The notes under the pieces were generated by a model. That model made no database searches, was not told the DNA's origin, and saw only the letters and a program-made list of their open reading frames with translations. A program made the position numbers and the translations under genes. Positions 27,077 to 36,505 of a stretch of DNA of 64,000 nucleotides are shown in pieces. This DNA comes from Bacteroidales bacterium (GTDB lineage: Bacteria > Bacteroidota > Bacteroidia > Bacteroidales > Marinilabiliaceae), in the NCBI GenBank assembly GCA_017960905.1, contig JAGCYH010000014.1, positions 1 to 64,000 on the forward strand. The letters run 5' to 3'. Positions within the stretch are counted from its first letter, which is position 1, and every line of letters begins with the position of its first letter.

Positions 27077-27598
27077 ATGAAAAAATTATTCTTCGCTTTT
27101 TCAAGCATGATGCTCGCACTCATAAGTGCTTCATTACTTGTGGCTTGCTCTGATGACGATGACGACGAAAGCCAGACTTCACTCGACGATATTGTCGGCC
27201 TCTATTCGGGCGATATGGATTGCGACGTTACCGTTATGGGGCGCGTCATCAATATCGACTATAATGAGGTGAAGGCCGAAGTGTCGAAAAATGCTGACGG
27301 GCAGACACTTTGTATCAAAATCAAGGACTTTGCTTACGCCGGTGATAACTATGGCGACATTGTCATCGACAACGTTGTTGTCGATAAATACAACGACGAC
27401 GGCAGTGTGACGCTTGCCGGCACTAACGTTTGCCCGCTCACTAAAAACGAAAAGGCATACGATGCCACAGTGGCTATGCTCGGCTCGTTCACGCGCTTGC
27501 AGAACTCGCTTCAGCTCGACATCGACATGTCGCTGCCCGTGAGCGAAAAGATGACTATTCTGTTCAAGATTGATTATCAGAGCCTTACGCGCAATTGA
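27077..27598 (+). CDS. Calycin-like surface lipoprotein
   Basis: A 173-residue lipoprotein. ATG 27077 is chosen because it gives a clean signal peptide with lipobox LLVAC followed by SDDDDDES, a strong surface lipoprotein export signal. The mature part (YSGDMDCDVTVMGRVINIDY, then KIKDFAYAGDNYGDIVIDNV, ending in an LDIDMSLP strand) resembles the calycin-like beta-barrel lipoproteins of Bacteroidales. Its stop codon shares one base with the TonB-receptor start (TGATG). The pair is therefore translationally coupled, and the lipoprotein may be a substrate-capturing partner of the receptor. The substrate is unknown. Confidence 0.82.
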   Translation: MKKLFFAFSSMMLALISASLLVACSDDDDDESQTSLDDIVGLYSGDMDCDVTVMGRVINIDYNEVKAEVSKNADGQTLCIKIKDFAYAGDNYGDIVIDNVVVDKYNDDGSVTLAGTNVCPLTKNEKAYDATVAMLGSFTRLQNSLQLDIDMSLPVSEKMTILFKIDYQSLTRN

Positions 27599-29889
27599 TG
27601 AGAAAAAAAATAGTCCTATTCGTTTCTTTCATAGCAACAAATGTCGGCGCCTTTGGTGCCGACATTGTTGTAAACAACGATTCTATTCTTTCTATCTCAC
27701 TTTCAGAGATTTACATAGAGGCTTCGCCGAAAGAGAATGCCACGGTACAACGACTGCCTTTGTCGGCCTCTGTTCTTGGTCGCACGCAGCTTGCAGAAAA
27801 TCAGGTTGTTACGACGAAAGACCTTTCGTCGGTCGCGCCCAACTTCTTCATGCCCGACTATGGTAGCAGCCTCACTTCGGCCATCTACATACGCGGTGTC
27901 GGCTCGCGCATTAACACGCCCGCAGTGGGCCTCTATGTCGACGATGTGCCCTACATCGACAAGTCGTCGTTTGCGTTCAACTTCATCGGCGTAGAGAGCA
28001 TCGACGTGCTGCGCGGCCCGCAATCGACTCTGTATGGGCGCAATACGATGGGCGGTCTCGTGCACATTCATACTACAAATCCGTTTGGGCCACGTTCCAC
28101 TACGCTGCGCCTTGGCGCAGCGGCTCAAAACGAGCAGATAACGCTGCAACTATCGCACCACGGCTCTCTTAATCAGCATGTTGCGGTGCTTGCCGAAGGC
28201 TTTTTCAATAAAAACAACGGTTTCTTCCGCAATGATTTTCTGGGCGAAAATGCCGATGCATCGACGCTCGCAGGCGGTCGCCTTCGAAGCGTAGTAATTC
28301 CTGCCGACAATCTAAAAGTCGATATGTCAGTGAGTTATGAGTACACTCACGAAAATGGCTATCCTTACGAGTATTGCGGTGTTGCGAGTGGCGACGAGCA
28401 GTTCCCTGACCTTATTGGCAAAATAACGAGCAACCGCGAAAATGGCTATCGGCGTTCGATGTTCAATGCCGCGGTGAAGATTTTGTCGCAAAGCGACAAA
28501 ATCACCTTTACGTCAGTGACTGGTTTTCAGGGACTTAGCGACCACATGATATTCGACCAGGATTTTCTCCCAACCGATACATTTGGCCTCGATCAGTATC
28601 AGCATCAACACACTCTTACTCAAGAGTTTATACTTAAAAACCGTTGCGCTGCCGACCGCTGGCAATGGACGCTTGGCGCCTTTGGTTATCGCCAATGGCT
28701 AAGAATCGAAAGCCCCGTGCGTTTCAACCGTGGCGGTGTGCAGATGATTCAGCAGGCCATGGATAAAGCCATGAGAGCATCACAATCGGCCGAAGCGCCT
28801 GATTATGTGCGCATTACCGACGACGAAATGCTTGTGCCTGGCGATTTTGACAATCCGTCGATGGGTGCTGCCATTTATCATCAGTCGTCGGTCGGTATAA
28901 CCGACAAGCTCAGTGTAACTGTCGGTGCGCGAGTGGATTACGAGCGCTACAATCTCGATTATCTCACTGGTGCTACCATAGGTTGCGACATAGGCATGAA
29001 CGGCACTGTGGTTCACGGTCGCAACAAGATATGGTATTCGAACTCAGAGCAGACAGATTATTTGAAGTTTTTGCCCAAAATAGCCCTTTTATACCGTTTC
29101 GACAAATCGAATACGATTTTCGCTTCAGTTACAAATGGCTATCGTTCAGGTGGTTACAATGTTCAGATGTTTGCCGATATTATCAGCACTTCGTTTCAAA
29201 ACGGTTCGAAGATTTCCGACGATGAGGTAGGCGAGTCGGTTGAGTTCGACCCCGAGATATGTTGCAATTACGAGCTCGGAACTCGCTTGCTATTAGGTGG
29301 TTATGTTCATCTCGACGCTTCGGTGTTCTATATGGATATGCGGCATCAGCAGATAGCCAAGTTTGCTGAAGGCGGTTTGGGACGGCGCGTTACAAATGCT
29401 GGTCGGAGTCGAAGCGCAGGCGGTGAACTGTCGGTCGCTTTTTCGGCCTTCGCCGAAAAACTCTCTTTTCGTGCCGACTATGGCTACACTCGCTCGGAGT
29501 TTGTTGAGTATTCTACCGTTGTCGATAATCGGCAAGCCGATTATGAGGGCAATTTCGTGCCGTTTGTTCCGCGTCAGACATGCTCAGCCACAGTAAGTTA
29601 TGCGTTTGTCGACAATGCAGTCGGCACGTTTCGCCGATTGTCGGTCGGCATGAATGCTTCGGCAACGGGCCGTATATATTGGAATGAGGAGAATTCGGCC
29701 CTTCAACACAGCTACGCTGTGTCGGGTGCGTTTGCCGATGCGCAGTTTGGCAAGGTTGCCATTCATTTGTGGGCCAAGAATATTTTCAACGAAGAGTATT
29801 CCACCTTCAGTTTCGAAAGCATGAACCACCGCTTTGTGCAGCGTGGCAAACCGTTTCATCTTGGTGTCGAAGTAACCGTAAGGTTTTGA
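27598..29889 (+). CDS. TonB-dependent outer-membrane receptor
   Basis: A 763-residue outer-membrane active transporter. A signal peptide (to about residue 22) leads into the plug domain (LSEIYIEASPK as TonB-box region, then PNFFMPDYGSSLTSAIYIRGVGS and VLRGPQSTLYGRNTMGG, about residues 30-160). The 22-strand barrel ends in the characteristic Phe (GVEVTVRF). It lacks the N-terminal carboxypeptidase-like domain of SusC proteins and no SusD partner follows. A siderophore, haem or vitamin substrate is therefore more likely than a glycan. It is coupled to the preceding calycin-like lipoprotein. No terminator hairpin was seen after it. Confidence 0.93.
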   Translation: MRKKIVLFVSFIATNVGAFGADIVVNNDSILSISLSEIYIEASPKENATVQRLPLSASVLGRTQLAENQVVTTKDLSSVAPNFFMPDYGSSLTSAIYIRGVGSRINTPAVGLYVDDVPYIDKSSFAFNFIGVESIDVLRGPQSTLYGRNTMGGLVHIHTTNPFGPRSTTLRLGAAAQNEQITLQLSHHGSLNQHVAVLAEGFFNKNNGFFRNDFLGENADASTLAGGRLRSVVIPADNLKVDMSVSYEYTHENGYPYEYCGVASGDEQFPDLIGKITSNRENGYRRSMFNAAVKILSQSDKITFTSVTGFQGLSDHMIFDQDFLPTDTFGLDQYQHQHTLTQEFILKNRCAADRWQWTLGAFGYRQWLRIESPVRFNRGGVQMIQQAMDKAMRASQSAEAPDYVRITDDEMLVPGDFDNPSMGAAIYHQSSVGITDKLSVTVGARVDYERYNLDYLTGATIGCDIGMNGTVVHGRNKIWYSNSEQTDYLKFLPKIALLYRFDKSNTIFASVTNGYRSGGYNVQMFADIISTSFQNGSKISDDEVGESVEFDPEICCNYELGTRLLLGGYVHLDASVFYMDMRHQQIAKFAEGGLGRRVTNAGRSRSAGGELSVAFSAFAEKLSFRADYGYTRSEFVEYSTVVDNRQADYEGNFVPFVPRQTCSATVSYAFVDNAVGTFRRLSVGMNASATGRIYWNEENSALQHSYAVSGAFADAQFGKVAIHLWAKNIFNEEYSTFSFESMNHRFVQRGKPFHLGVEVTVRF

Positions 29890-32410: not shown

Positions 32411-33202
32411 ATGCGCAATCTGGTTGTCGATTTGGGAAATACAGCCGCTAAAATGGCCATTTACAACGAGTTACATCGCGAAAGCGATGTAACAGTTGTC
32501 TCTCATGACGAAATGACCGATAAAATCACACAAATGTGTGATAATCACGGCGTTAAAGTCGTTGTGGTTGCTTCTGTGTCCGATTTTCAGTTTCCTTCCG
32601 AAGAACTGAAATGGCGCGGAATATCAACCTACATGGCGCAGTCGCCCATCAAGCTGCCTTTCCCATGTCGTTACGCCACTTGCAACACGCTTGGCATCGA
32701 CCGCGTTGCGGCCGTTGTGGCCGCGTTGGAGCAGTTCTCCGACCCGAATATGCTCATCATCGATGTGGGTACTGCCGCCACGTACGAGATGATTGTCGAC
32801 CGCGAGTACATCGGCGGCACCATATCGCCTGGCATGGCCATGCGATTCAAGGCCCTCAACGCTTTCACAGGCAAACTGCCGCTCGGCAATGCCGAGCATT
32901 TCGACTCGTGGATTGGCTACTCTACCGATACCGCCCTCGCTGCCGGTGTGGTCAACGGTTTGCAGTTCGAAATAGAAGGCTATATAAGTAACTTTTTTTC
33001 GGCCTTCGGCGAAAAAAGTAAGGTGATTATTACAGGAGGAGACCACAAATATTTGGCACAAAGGATGAAAAATAGCATCTTTGCACTGCCAAATTTGGTG
33101 TTAGACGGTATCGATGTGTTGTACGAAAAATTTTTCGACAACTATAACTGGCTGATTGACGCAATGTTACAAGGTAAAATTATTATCCAAAATACCGACT
33201 GA
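32411..33202 (+). CDS. coaX: Type III pantothenate kinase
   Basis: A 263-residue enzyme phosphorylating pantothenate in the first step of coenzyme A synthesis. ASKHA-fold motifs: VVDLGNTAAKMAIYN (phosphate 1), NTLGIDRVAAVVAA, IIDVGTAATYEMI (phosphate 2), and GGTISPGMAMRFKALNAFTGKLP. Type III kinases use a monovalent cation and are not inhibited by CoA. In many Bacteroidales coaX precedes the TPR-lptC-GldE block, as here. A perfect 10-bp hairpin with a GAAA loop (32470-32493) lies near the start. Confidence 0.95.
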   Translation: MRNLVVDLGNTAAKMAIYNELHRESDVTVVSHDEMTDKITQMCDNHGVKVVVVASVSDFQFPSEELKWRGISTYMAQSPIKLPFPCRYATCNTLGIDRVAAVVAALEQFSDPNMLIIDVGTAATYEMIVDREYIGGTISPGMAMRFKALNAFTGKLPLGNAEHFDSWIGYSTDTALAAGVVNGLQFEIEGYISNFFSAFGEKSKVIITGGDHKYLAQRMKNSIFALPNLVLDGIDVLYEKFFDNYNWLIDAMLQGKIIIQNTD

Positions 33203-33279
33203 CGCAATTTAGGCAAGCATTTTGTATAGGTTAAAAACAAAGAAATAATTGAATTAAAAATTTAATAATAGATAGAACC

Positions 33280-34638
33280 ATGAAAAGAATAATGTTTTTA
33301 GCAATTGGATTGTTCACCGCATCAATTGCATTCGCACAGAAAGGTGTCGACGACGGATCGAAATACGGACACGGAGAGGACAGCGTGCGCTGTATTCAGA
33401 ATTTGGTAATGTACGGCGACGCCGTAAAAATGAAAAACTACGCCGAAGCATATCATCCTTGGCTCATCGTTTTCAACGAAGCACCTTTGGCTAAGAAAAC
33501 CACTCTTTACACCGACGGTGTAAAGATTGTTAAGAATATGTTCGCCAACGAAAAAGACGAGGCTAAAAGAGAGGAATTCTTCAAACTCATGCAGAAAATC
33601 TACGACCAGCGTATCAAATACTATGGTACTCAGAAAAACTACCCAGAGTCGTATCTGCTTGGTATGAAGGGCGTTGATATGTTGAGCATGAGAAACGATG
33701 TTGCTGTTAAAAAGCAAGCTGTCGGTTTCCTCGAGAAAGCTATCAACGGCGATATCGCTACTGTGCAAGCCGCTTTCGTAGGCCAGTATATTCTTGCTAA
33801 ATCTGACTTGTTCAAGGCTGGCGAAATCACAGCCGAGCAAATGATCGACAGCTACGTGTTCGCATCTGACGCTGTGAACAAATTGCAAGAAGTGGCTACC
33901 GACAAAAACCGTCAGGCTATTGAAGATACTAAAGTTCAGGTTGAACAAGTGTTTGGCGCAAGCGGCGCTGCCGATTGCGAAACTCTCGCTAAGATTTTCG
34001 GTCCGCAACTCGACGAACACAAAGCCGACAAAGCTTGGCTGACTCGTATCAACAAACTCTTGTCGAAGAGCGACTGCACCGAATCGGAATTCTTCTATTC
34101 TACTTCGGAATGCCTCTACAACATCGAACCCGACGCATCTTCGGCTCGCGGTTTGGCTAAGATGTACGTGAAGAAAGGCGACGCAAGCCAGGCTCTCGAT
34201 TTCTACAATCAGGCTGTAAACCTCGAAACCGACAACGACCTCAAAGCTAAATACTGCTACGAAATAGGTGTGCTCAACTTCTCTAACAACAGCTATTCGG
34301 CCGCTAAAGCAGCCTTGCTGCAAGCTGCTAAATATCGTGAGAACTGGGGCGACCCGTATTTGCTGCTCGGTAAGGTTTACGCAGCCGGTGCAAGCCATAT
34401 CGGTGAGAAACCTTTCGAGAAACAAGCCGGCTACTGGGCTGCTGTCGATAAATTCATAAAAGCTAAATCGGTTGATAGCAGCGAAAGCGTTCAGTCGCAG
34501 GCCAACGAACTCATACGCCAGTATTCGCAATACTTCCCGAAGAAAGAAGACCTCTTCTTCGAAGGTATTCAGGATGGTTCGGGCTACACTGTAGGAGGCT
34601 TTATCAACGAGCGCACCACAGTACGCTCTAAGAAATAA
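33280..34638 (+). CDS. Periplasmic tetratricopeptide repeat protein
   Basis: A 452-residue exported protein with a cleavable signal peptide (ending ASIAFAQ). The body is helical with TPR-like units, best seen in the C-terminal part (ARGLAKMYVKKGDASQALDFY and KYCYEIGVLNFSNNSYSAAKAAL). It is conserved in Bacteroidales directly upstream of lptC, suggesting an envelope-assembly role, but the function is not established. It lies 8 bases before lptC. A strong hairpin inside the start of lptC could end or trim its transcript. Codons are strongly biased (AAA, GAA, GCT), suggesting high expression. Confidence 0.87.
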   Translation: MKRIMFLAIGLFTASIAFAQKGVDDGSKYGHGEDSVRCIQNLVMYGDAVKMKNYAEAYHPWLIVFNEAPLAKKTTLYTDGVKIVKNMFANEKDEAKREEFFKLMQKIYDQRIKYYGTQKNYPESYLLGMKGVDMLSMRNDVAVKKQAVGFLEKAINGDIATVQAAFVGQYILAKSDLFKAGEITAEQMIDSYVFASDAVNKLQEVATDKNRQAIEDTKVQVEQVFGASGAADCETLAKIFGPQLDEHKADKAWLTRINKLLSKSDCTESEFFYSTSECLYNIEPDASSARGLAKMYVKKGDASQALDFYNQAVNLETDNDLKAKYCYEIGVLNFSNNSYSAAKAALLQAAKYRENWGDPYLLLGKVYAAGASHIGEKPFEKQAGYWAAVDKFIKAKSVDSSESVQSQANELIRQYSQYFPKKEDLFFEGIQDGSGYTVGGFINERTTVRSKK

Positions 34639-34646
34639 AAGATTCT

Positions 34647-35243
34647 ATGCCGACGTGCCTCAAGAATAATATATTCAAAACAATAAGCAACGCTTTGGCG
34701 TTGCTTATTGTTTTGACTTTTTCGTCTTGTTTTAGCAACAAAACGGAGGAGTTGCAGGCCGTCGAAGACGAACAGGAACGCCCCTCGCTCATCGTCCGCG
34801 ACCTTCATACCATCGTTACCGATTCGGGCTTCATAAAGTACGATTTCGAAACCTCGGACCTCGCGCAGTACGACAACGTCGACGAGCCTTACATAAACTT
34901 TCCGAAAGGGCTCACTTTTAAAATGTATTCCGACGAAGGCAGAAACTTGAAAACCACTATAAAATGCAATAACGCAAAGTTTTACAAGACGCAAAACCTT
35001 TGGGAACTCAACAACGACGTTGAGGCTCGCACCGGAAAGGGCGACCTTCTCAACAGCGAGCAGCTGTTTTGGAACACCAAAGAGCACAGAATTTATTCCG
35101 ATAAATTCGTGCGTATCAGTACTAAAAATCAAGTCATTACCGGCTACGGATTTGAGTCCGATGAAAAAATGTCGAAGTACGAGATTAAGAATCCGGGCGG
35201 CGAAATAGAAATCCCTAACGTACAGCGAAATACTACTGATTGA
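34647..35243 (+). CDS. lptC: LPS export ABC transporter periplasmic protein LptC
   Basis: A 198-residue lipoprotein-type LptC, which receives lipopolysaccharide from the LptB2FG extractor and passes it to LptA. The signal sequence ends in the lipobox TFSSC. The beta-jellyroll is visible in the alternating strands YDFETSDLAQYDN, FPKGLTFKMYSDEG, IKCNNAKFYKTQNLWELNND, VEARTGKGDLLNSEQLFWN and RIYSDKFVRISTKNQVITGYG, the typical LptC/LptA signature. The start ATG lies 8 bases after the TPR gene. Codons 10-23 are formed by a perfect 18-bp hairpin. Confidence 0.93.
   Translation: MPTCLKNNIFKTISNALALLIVLTFSSCFSNKTEELQAVEDEQERPSLIVRDLHTIVTDSGFIKYDFETSDLAQYDNVDEPYINFPKGLTFKMYSDEGRNLKTTIKCNNAKFYKTQNLWELNNDVEARTGKGDLLNSEQLFWNTKEHRIYSDKFVRISTKNQVITGYGFESDEKMSKYEIKNPGGEIEIPNVQRNTTD
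34676..34715 (+). promoter_or_regulatory. Perfect 18-bp hairpin inside the lptC signal-peptide codons
   Basis: Arms 34676-34693 and 34698-34715 pair without a mismatch around the loop TTTG; the 3' arm ends in TTTTG and is followed by ACTTTTT. It looks like an intrinsic terminator or RNA-processing site placed within the reading frame, 38 bases after the TPR stop codon. Confidence 0.85.
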
Positions 35244-35245
35244 AA

Positions 35246-36505
35246 ATGGAAGGAAGCTATACCATAATAATCGTTATGTTAATCCTGTCGGCATTCTGCT
35301 CTGGCAGCGAAATGGCTTTCATGTCGTCGAACAAGCTCCTTCTCGAAATAAACCGTAGCAAACACCCGCGTATATCAAAAATAATCGACATTTTCTTGTC
35401 GAAACCCGATATTCTTATATCCACAATCCTTGTCGGCAACAATGTTGCCTTGGTCATTTTCGGTCTCGAATTCGGATACCTCTTCGGCCCGCCTTTGGCC
35501 GAACACTTTGAGTCGCCTTCGGCTATTCTGCTCATTCAGACGCTGATATCCACTGTTGTGATTATCGTTACAGCCGAATTCCTGCCAAAAACAATCATTC
35601 AAATCAACCCGACGACAATGCTCAACATACTGGCTGTGCCGTTGTTGCTGCTTTTCATAATATTCTATCCCATAGGTCGTTTGATGCAAATGCTTGCGCA
35701 TTTTATCATCAAATTCATATTCAAAGCCAAAGTGGAGTCGAGCTACGAAGGCTGGCTACCTTCGCGCGTCGATTTGGACAATCTGCTGCAACGTCAGACT
35801 CAAACGGCTACAAGCGACGCTTCGGTCACTCAGGAAGCACGCCTGATGAAAAACGCTCTCGACTTCTCTAAAATAAAAGTCCGTGATTGTGCTGTCCCGC
35901 GAACGGAAATAGTCGCAGTTGACATCAACGACACGCTCGACGAACTTAAACAGAAATTTATCGATACAAAGTATTCGAAAATACTTGTATATCAAGACAA
36001 TATAGACAATATCATAGGCTATGTGCACGTCTCGGAAATGTTCCATGCCGCCAAAACAATCCGCTCTATGATGACGCGAATTGTTGTGGTGCCCGAAACC
36101 ATGCGCGCCAACACTCTGCTCAAGCTCTTCACAGAGCAGCACAAGAGTATCGCTATCGTTGTTGACGAGTTTGGCGGAACCGCAGGCATGATTACTCTCG
36201 AAGACGTTCTCGAAGAGATTTTCGGCGAGATTAACGACGAACACGATGTCAACGAATTGGAAGAGAAGCAGTTGAGCGAATCTGAATTCGTATTCTCAAG
36301 CCGATTGGAAATTGATTATTTGAACGAGAAATATAAACTGAAATTGCCGATTTCCGACGATTACGACACGCTGTCGGGGCTTCTGCTCAATCAAACTGGC
36401 GCTATCCCTAAATCGGGCGACGTAATCACGTTCGACAATTTTGAAATAAAAATACTGACAACTTCCAGTGCACGTATCGAAACTGTCAGATTGTCAGTTA
36501 AATAA
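35246..36505 (+). CDS. CNNM/CorC (hemolysin C-like) membrane protein, GldE-like
   Basis: A 419-residue inner-membrane protein. The N-terminal DUF21 domain has four hydrophobic segments (TIIIVMLILSAFCSGSEMAF, then STILVGNNVALVIFGLEFGY, SAILLIQTLISTVVIIVTAEF, ILAVPLLLLFIIFYPIG). A CBS pair (about residues 210-335) contains VPRTEIVAVDIN and VVDEFGGTAGMITLEDVLEEIFGEI. A C-terminal CorC_HlyC domain follows. Relatives act in divalent cation transport, and the Bacteroidetes member GldE is linked to gliding/T9SS. ATG 35246 is preferred to the TTG two codons upstream. It overlaps no neighbour but lies 2 bases after lptC. Confidence 0.92.
   Translation: MEGSYTIIIVMLILSAFCSGSEMAFMSSNKLLLEINRSKHPRISKIIDIFLSKPDILISTILVGNNVALVIFGLEFGYLFGPPLAEHFESPSAILLIQTLISTVVIIVTAEFLPKTIIQINPTTMLNILAVPLLLLFIIFYPIGRLMQMLAHFIIKFIFKAKVESSYEGWLPSRVDLDNLLQRQTQTATSDASVTQEARLMKNALDFSKIKVRDCAVPRTEIVAVDINDTLDELKQKFIDTKYSKILVYQDNIDNIIGYVHVSEMFHAAKTIRSMMTRIVVVPETMRANTLLKLFTEQHKSIAIVVDEFGGTAGMITLEDVLEEIFGEINDEHDVNELEEKQLSESEFVFSSRLEIDYLNEKYKLKLPISDDYDTLSGLLLNQTGAIPKSGDVITFDNFEIKILTTSSARIETVRLSVK

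Follow-up and report, generated by a model that had tools for sequence, protein, structure and literature searches.

The window, by which we mean the whole analysed stretch of 64,000 nucleotides, is part of one contig (C46) of a 3.1-Mb genome in 58 contigs, whose closest named relatives are metagenome-derived genomes of Bacteroidales, of which at least two come from ruminants. The locus of interest is centered on lptC, upstream of which a secreted TPR protein and a type III pantothenate kinase are encoded, and which is followed in the operon by a gldE-like gene with TIGR03520 as its best match, below cut-off (220.9 of 376 bits). The LptC signal peptide is of the lipoprotein type, MPTCLKNNIFKTISNALALLIVLTFSSC, with Cys28 encoded at 34728-34730. 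A pattern scan for the Bacteroidetes-type promoter TAnnTTTG has returned no match in 33201-34700. The coordinates of all features are collected in Table 1.

Table 1. Genes and hairpin elements at the lptC locus, in window coordinates.
Feature	Position	Strand	Basis
Gene for TPR-repeat protein with signal peptide, 452 aa	33280-34638	+	ORF; weak TPR_11/TPR_8 matches
Stop codon of the TPR gene	34636-34638	+	Sequence; 36 nt ahead of the stem
lptC, LPS export ABC transporter periplasmic protein	34647-35243	+	TIGR04409 (E 8e-25), PF06835 (E 1.8e-16)
Hairpin 5' arm TCAAAACAATAAGCAACGC, outer part A-rich	34675-34693	+	Inverted-repeat search, RNA fold
TTTG tetraloop	34694-34697	+	Inverted-repeat search, RNA fold
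Hairpin 3' arm GCGTTGCTTATTGTTTTGA, T-rich past the G+C core GCGTTGC	34698-34716	+	Inverted repeat, fold, terminator scan
T tract TTTTT past the stem, one C between	34718-34722	+	Sequence, terminator scan
gldE-like CNNM/CBS/CorC_HlyC gene, next in operon	35240-36505	+	PF01595; TIGR03520

A first-pass annotation had described a perfect hairpin in the signal-peptide codons of lptC, followed by a T-rich stretch, and both have been confirmed as a perfect stem and a run of TTTTT. Its pairing, its position after the TPR stop and its location in the signal peptide stand as described, whereas its dimensions needed revision: an inverted-repeat search of the window has given a stem of 19 bp with 100% complementary arms at 34675-34716 rather than 18 bp at 34676-34715, covering codons 10-24 rather than 10-23, and starting 36 nt, not 38, past the TPR stop codon and 28 nt past the A of the lptC ATG. 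It had also been called the strongest hairpin in the window, which is true of its length, as it is the longest perfect inverted repeat within these 64 kb, but not of its folding energy, by which it ranks fifth among the 50-nt windows and third among the ORF-internal ones. The RNA has a minimum free energy of -28.7 kcal/mol, compared with a mean of -7.0 for dinucleotide shuffles (z -10.2, 0/200 as stable), and none of 150 synonymous recodings of the signal-peptide codons at this locus has folded as stably. Elsewhere in the window, a TonB-dependent-receptor-like gene (27598-29889), whose start overlaps with the stop of the lipoprotein-like gene before it, holds a strong hairpin in its own signal-peptide codons near 27633-27672, TGTCGGCGCC-TTT-GGTGCCGACA, without a T run.

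The lptC hairpin has the composition of an intrinsic terminator, with a G+C core beside the loop (GCAACGC/GCGTTGC) and a T tract at the 3' end of the stem, TTATTGTTTTGACTTTTT, that is matched in a terminator scan; this tract, CTTTTT, is imperfect and is preceded by an A-T rich stem end. In E. coli, an intrinsic terminator is most efficient once it is separated from the preceding stop codon by more than 27 nt, and placement in the first 100 bp of an ORF, even at 30 bp past the start codon, leaves it functional (PMC4824070). The spacing found here, 36 nt from the stop and 28 nt from the start, fits these experiments.

Conservation of the element has been followed by sampling lptC in 41 relatives, then in the whole family with 71 genomes, in 198 genomes of the order, where most families were represented by one or two, and at the level of the phylum, with the DNA around about 190 distinct lptC genes anchored at the lipobox Cys codon. 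A hairpin has been called when the best 50-nt fold in the LptC signal-peptide codons fell below -15 kcal/mol, an arbitrary threshold that is reached by 1.5-6% of control windows in the lptC body, and TPR homologues have been called with an iterated profile. Strong folds cluster about 60-10 nt upstream of the lipobox Cys codon, and their occurrence follows the upstream gene. In 65/70 genomes of the family and 58/91 of the order, the gene immediately before lptC is a TPR homologue; the hairpin is present in 64/65 and 43/58 of these, respectively, and in 0/5 and 5/33 of the genomes without a directly upstream TPR gene. The association is highly significant at the order level (Fisher p = 5.6e-8), where phylogenetic dependence of the sampling is less severe than within the family.

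The hairpin is dispensable in some genomes, as fifteen order-level genomes with TPR upstream are without a strong one, and in about ten of these no clear intergenic substitute has been found. Several of the cases scored as absent have weaker stems at the same place (G122, G127, G247). At six loci (L182, L057, L060, L163, L175, L198), TPR adjoins lptC, but the signal-peptide codons hold no strong hairpin and no intergenic terminator is obvious.

It is the position of the hairpin that is conserved and not its letters, the pairing being kept by compensatory change. The 105 strong hairpins comprise 102 distinct sequences with a median stem of 18 pairs, and they start at a median of 39 nt past the TPR stop, 94/105 of them at 27 nt or more. 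When ten sequences in one register were aligned by codons, 95% of cells were paired and all 16 pairs carried changes on both sides, which was matched in 0/500 shuffles, with slid-register controls at 28-58%; the alignment set containing the hairpin of the window reached 97.6% of cells paired, although these counts lean towards pairing in that the subsets were picked by shared loop position among strong hairpins. Conserved pairing in relatives had been put forward by the first-pass annotation as a check of function, and the compensatory changes at all 16 pairs bear it out. The TPR association and the synonymous-codon comparison are independent of the choice of these subsets.

The latter comparison has shown that the structure does not simply follow from the amino-acid sequence. 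Among the genomes with TPR, 64/65 in the family and 39/58 in the order had no more than 7 of 150 synonymous recodings that folded as stably, while lptC genes without TPR within the order have shown no excess stability over their recodings, five TPR-less lptC genes of the same genus giving z +0.7. A by-product of the signal-peptide residues is thereby ruled out by both the recodings and the TPR-less orthologues. A general trait of signal-peptide genes is likewise ruled out, since a start-proximal hairpin with T run has been found in 0/689 other genes of the same loci (1.49 Mb), with mid-gene rates resembling those at gene starts. The T fraction of third codon positions around the end of the stem is 0.59 in lptC genes with the hairpin; it is 0.41 at the corresponding site in genes without one, and 0.28 over the lptC body. 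The raw T content of the 8 nt past the stem (0.52 vs 0.44) is weak evidence, as signal-peptide codons are T-rich anyway.

The distribution of ordinary terminators complements this picture. In five genomes of the same genus (L009, L012, L014, L015, L017), lptC lies without hairpin directly behind a uvrB-like gene, which we take from its sequence to be uvrB, and the TPR gene is found elsewhere, carrying in 5/5 cases an ordinary intergenic terminator within about 35 nt, such as GAGACGTGCAGAAATGTGCGTCTC with T's after it. At adjacent but widely spaced TPR and lptC genes, an intergenic terminator can stand between the two, in one genome (G034) as a 22-bp stem with T8 right past the stop, and likewise in a second (G031).

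On these grounds, the hairpin and its T tract are very probably an intrinsic (Rho-independent) terminator of the upstream TPR gene that is embedded in the signal-peptide codons of lptC, because T is enriched at the third positions of the stem end, because the uvrB-lptC genomes lack the hairpin while their detached TPR genes have an intergenic terminator, and because an intergenic terminator replaces it at some widely spaced TPR-lptC loci. The first-pass annotation had offered termination as one possible reading from a single sequence, and the comparative data, namely the covariation, the tracking of TPR, the intergenic replacement and the T-rich synonymous sites, strongly support it. Its further assumption, that the codons of a signal peptide leave room for RNA structure, holds as well; the hairpin is tolerated there because the residues A, S, L, V, I and F allow a choice of self-complementary codons that end in T.

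According to this mechanism, RNA polymerase would leave the TPR gene, the stem would form about 36-75 nt past the TPR stop, and some of the polymerases would terminate around 34718-34722. Such partial termination in vivo would be expected to place TPR expression above that of LptC and GldE, as the first-pass annotation had also proposed. As the stem follows the start codon of lptC, all full-length lptC-gldE messages would have to read through the hairpin, wherever their promoter lies, and the GldE-like protein would be made either from these read-through messages or from a promoter inside lptC. Terminated messages would hold the lptC start without a stop codon, and such non-stop messages call for ribosome rescue in E. 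coli (PMC4824070). Among the lptC genes behind an embedded hairpin, 36/105 have no ATG start upstream of the stem and use GTG or TTG only, compared with 2/38 Bacteroidales lptC genes without TPR that lack an ATG start (p = 2.4e-4). This excess is consistent with a pressure for low lptC initiation, and shared ancestry may contribute to the excess.

Other explanations of the hairpin have to account for the same observations. An origin by chance, as a mobile palindromic repeat or as an assembly artefact might be suspected when a perfect 19-bp stem is seen once, in one assembly of metagenome type, but its probability is negligible given a position conserved with covariation over more than 100 genomes; a dispersed or REP-like mobile palindrome is ruled out by the single site in its own genome and by its absence from 20 relatives. 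That the hairpin acts on lptC translation, for instance by slowing the ribosome during signal-peptide synthesis, would explain its location in just these codons, and a delayed signal-peptide translation had been offered as the alternative by the first-pass annotation. We regard this as very unlikely, since the same-genus TPR-less lptC genes encode the same kind of signal peptide and have the hairpin in 0/5 cases (z +0.7), since no such enrichment occurs in other signal-peptide genes, and since it leaves both the absence of the hairpin from uvrB-lptC genomes and the terminator of the detached TPR genes unexplained. Terminator hairpins can stabilize the RNA upstream of them, as is well known, and a post-transcriptional role, as a shield for the TPR mRNA 3' end or as a processing signal, with trimming as the source of RNA 3' ends, predicts the same position and the same link to TPR. 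The selected synonymous T past the stem and the interchange with intergenic terminators of full T run argue for termination instead, which makes such a role improbable.

The remaining alternative concerns regulation, with an antiterminator, a ligand or the translation of leader codons switching the terminator and the LptC/GldE output responding to a signal. A hairpin that all lptC messages pass is a natural control point, and the fewer ATG starts behind it (36/105 vs 2/38) may mean that initiation belongs to the system. A regulated attenuator nonetheless appears improbable, as the leader up to the 5' arm has no excess structure (median z +0.34 in 104 genomes, compared with -4.1 for the full hairpin), and as the Rfam search has given no score above the gathering threshold, the best sub-threshold E-values being 0.06-0.7; by these two measures, neither a mutually exclusive antiterminator nor an aptamer is indicated. 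Ribosomes starting 30 bp upstream have, in addition, cut termination by only about 10% in E. coli (PMC4824070). A constitutive partial terminator is therefore favoured as the likely form of the element, given the lack of antiterminator potential in the leader and of a Bacteroidetes-type promoter pattern in 33201-34700.

The embedded terminator may reach beyond the order. In a Flavobacterium-like family (f124), sampled lptC signal-peptide codons have a comparable hairpin with T run, e.g., AAAGCATTGCTGCCATTTTTATGGTGGCAATGTTTTTTT, and the upstream gene, where checked, encodes an outer-membrane protein and not a TPR protein. The f124 loci with an lptC hairpin are L085, L086, L090, L091, L093, L094, L217-L221, L225 and L233. 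The upstream gene can thus differ, and the link to TPR holds within Bacteroidales. As the f124 hairpin stands behind a different upstream gene, the embedding would be either old in the class or have arisen more than once.

Terminators have usually been sought between genes, and predictions inside ORFs have mostly been treated as background. Intergenic intrinsic terminators with partial readthrough share with the lptC element the G+C-cored stem-loop and T tract at about 30-60 nt past the stop, and terminators of precisely this kind follow the detached TPR genes in the genus; the lptC element differs in lying wholly inside the coding sequence of the next gene, past its start codon, and in recurring across the order and parts of the class. 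Neither intrinsic terminators nor ORF-internal RNA 3' ends are new in themselves. In Borrelia burgdorferi, a termination hairpin has been described in the bmpAB transcript, and an RNA 3' end within the ORF of bmpB (Ramamoorthy 2005, cited in PMC10319736), and in E. coli RNA 3' ends lie inside the ORF or leader of ispU (PMC7815308). Both resemble the lptC element as terminators internal to an ORF or leader, but they are reported as single genes, from mapping of RNA. An artificial tR2 terminator placed 30 bp inside an ORF shares the arrangement of a stem about 30 nt past the start and behind an upstream gene; it is functional in E. coli and is engineered, not natural (PMC4824070). Our full-text literature searches have returned no report of a terminator embedded in lptC, and a terminator kept in signal-peptide codons across an order, with covariation and intergenic exchange, is unreported in the literature searched.

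The comparison of relatives suggests that an intrinsic terminator has persisted for very long periods within a gene that is conserved and probably essential, despite the turnover of the letters of the hairpin, and that, with changes in gene order, it alternates between a coding and an intergenic location. We consider it possible, and propose tentatively, that in much of Bacteroidia the signal-peptide codons of lptC form a standing transcriptional gate for every lptC-gldE transcript, by which the capacity for LPS export is coupled to expression of the envelope gene upstream (TPR or OMP), with the pairing shaping the residues of the signal peptide (AS..LLAV, SIV..TMLF). If confirmed, the element would provide a natural system in which one sequence meets protein, RNA-structure and transcription constraints together, and a model of the cellular handling of the non-stop messages inevitably produced at such a site. 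It would also show how the dose of LptC is set against that of its operon neighbours in a major gut phylum.
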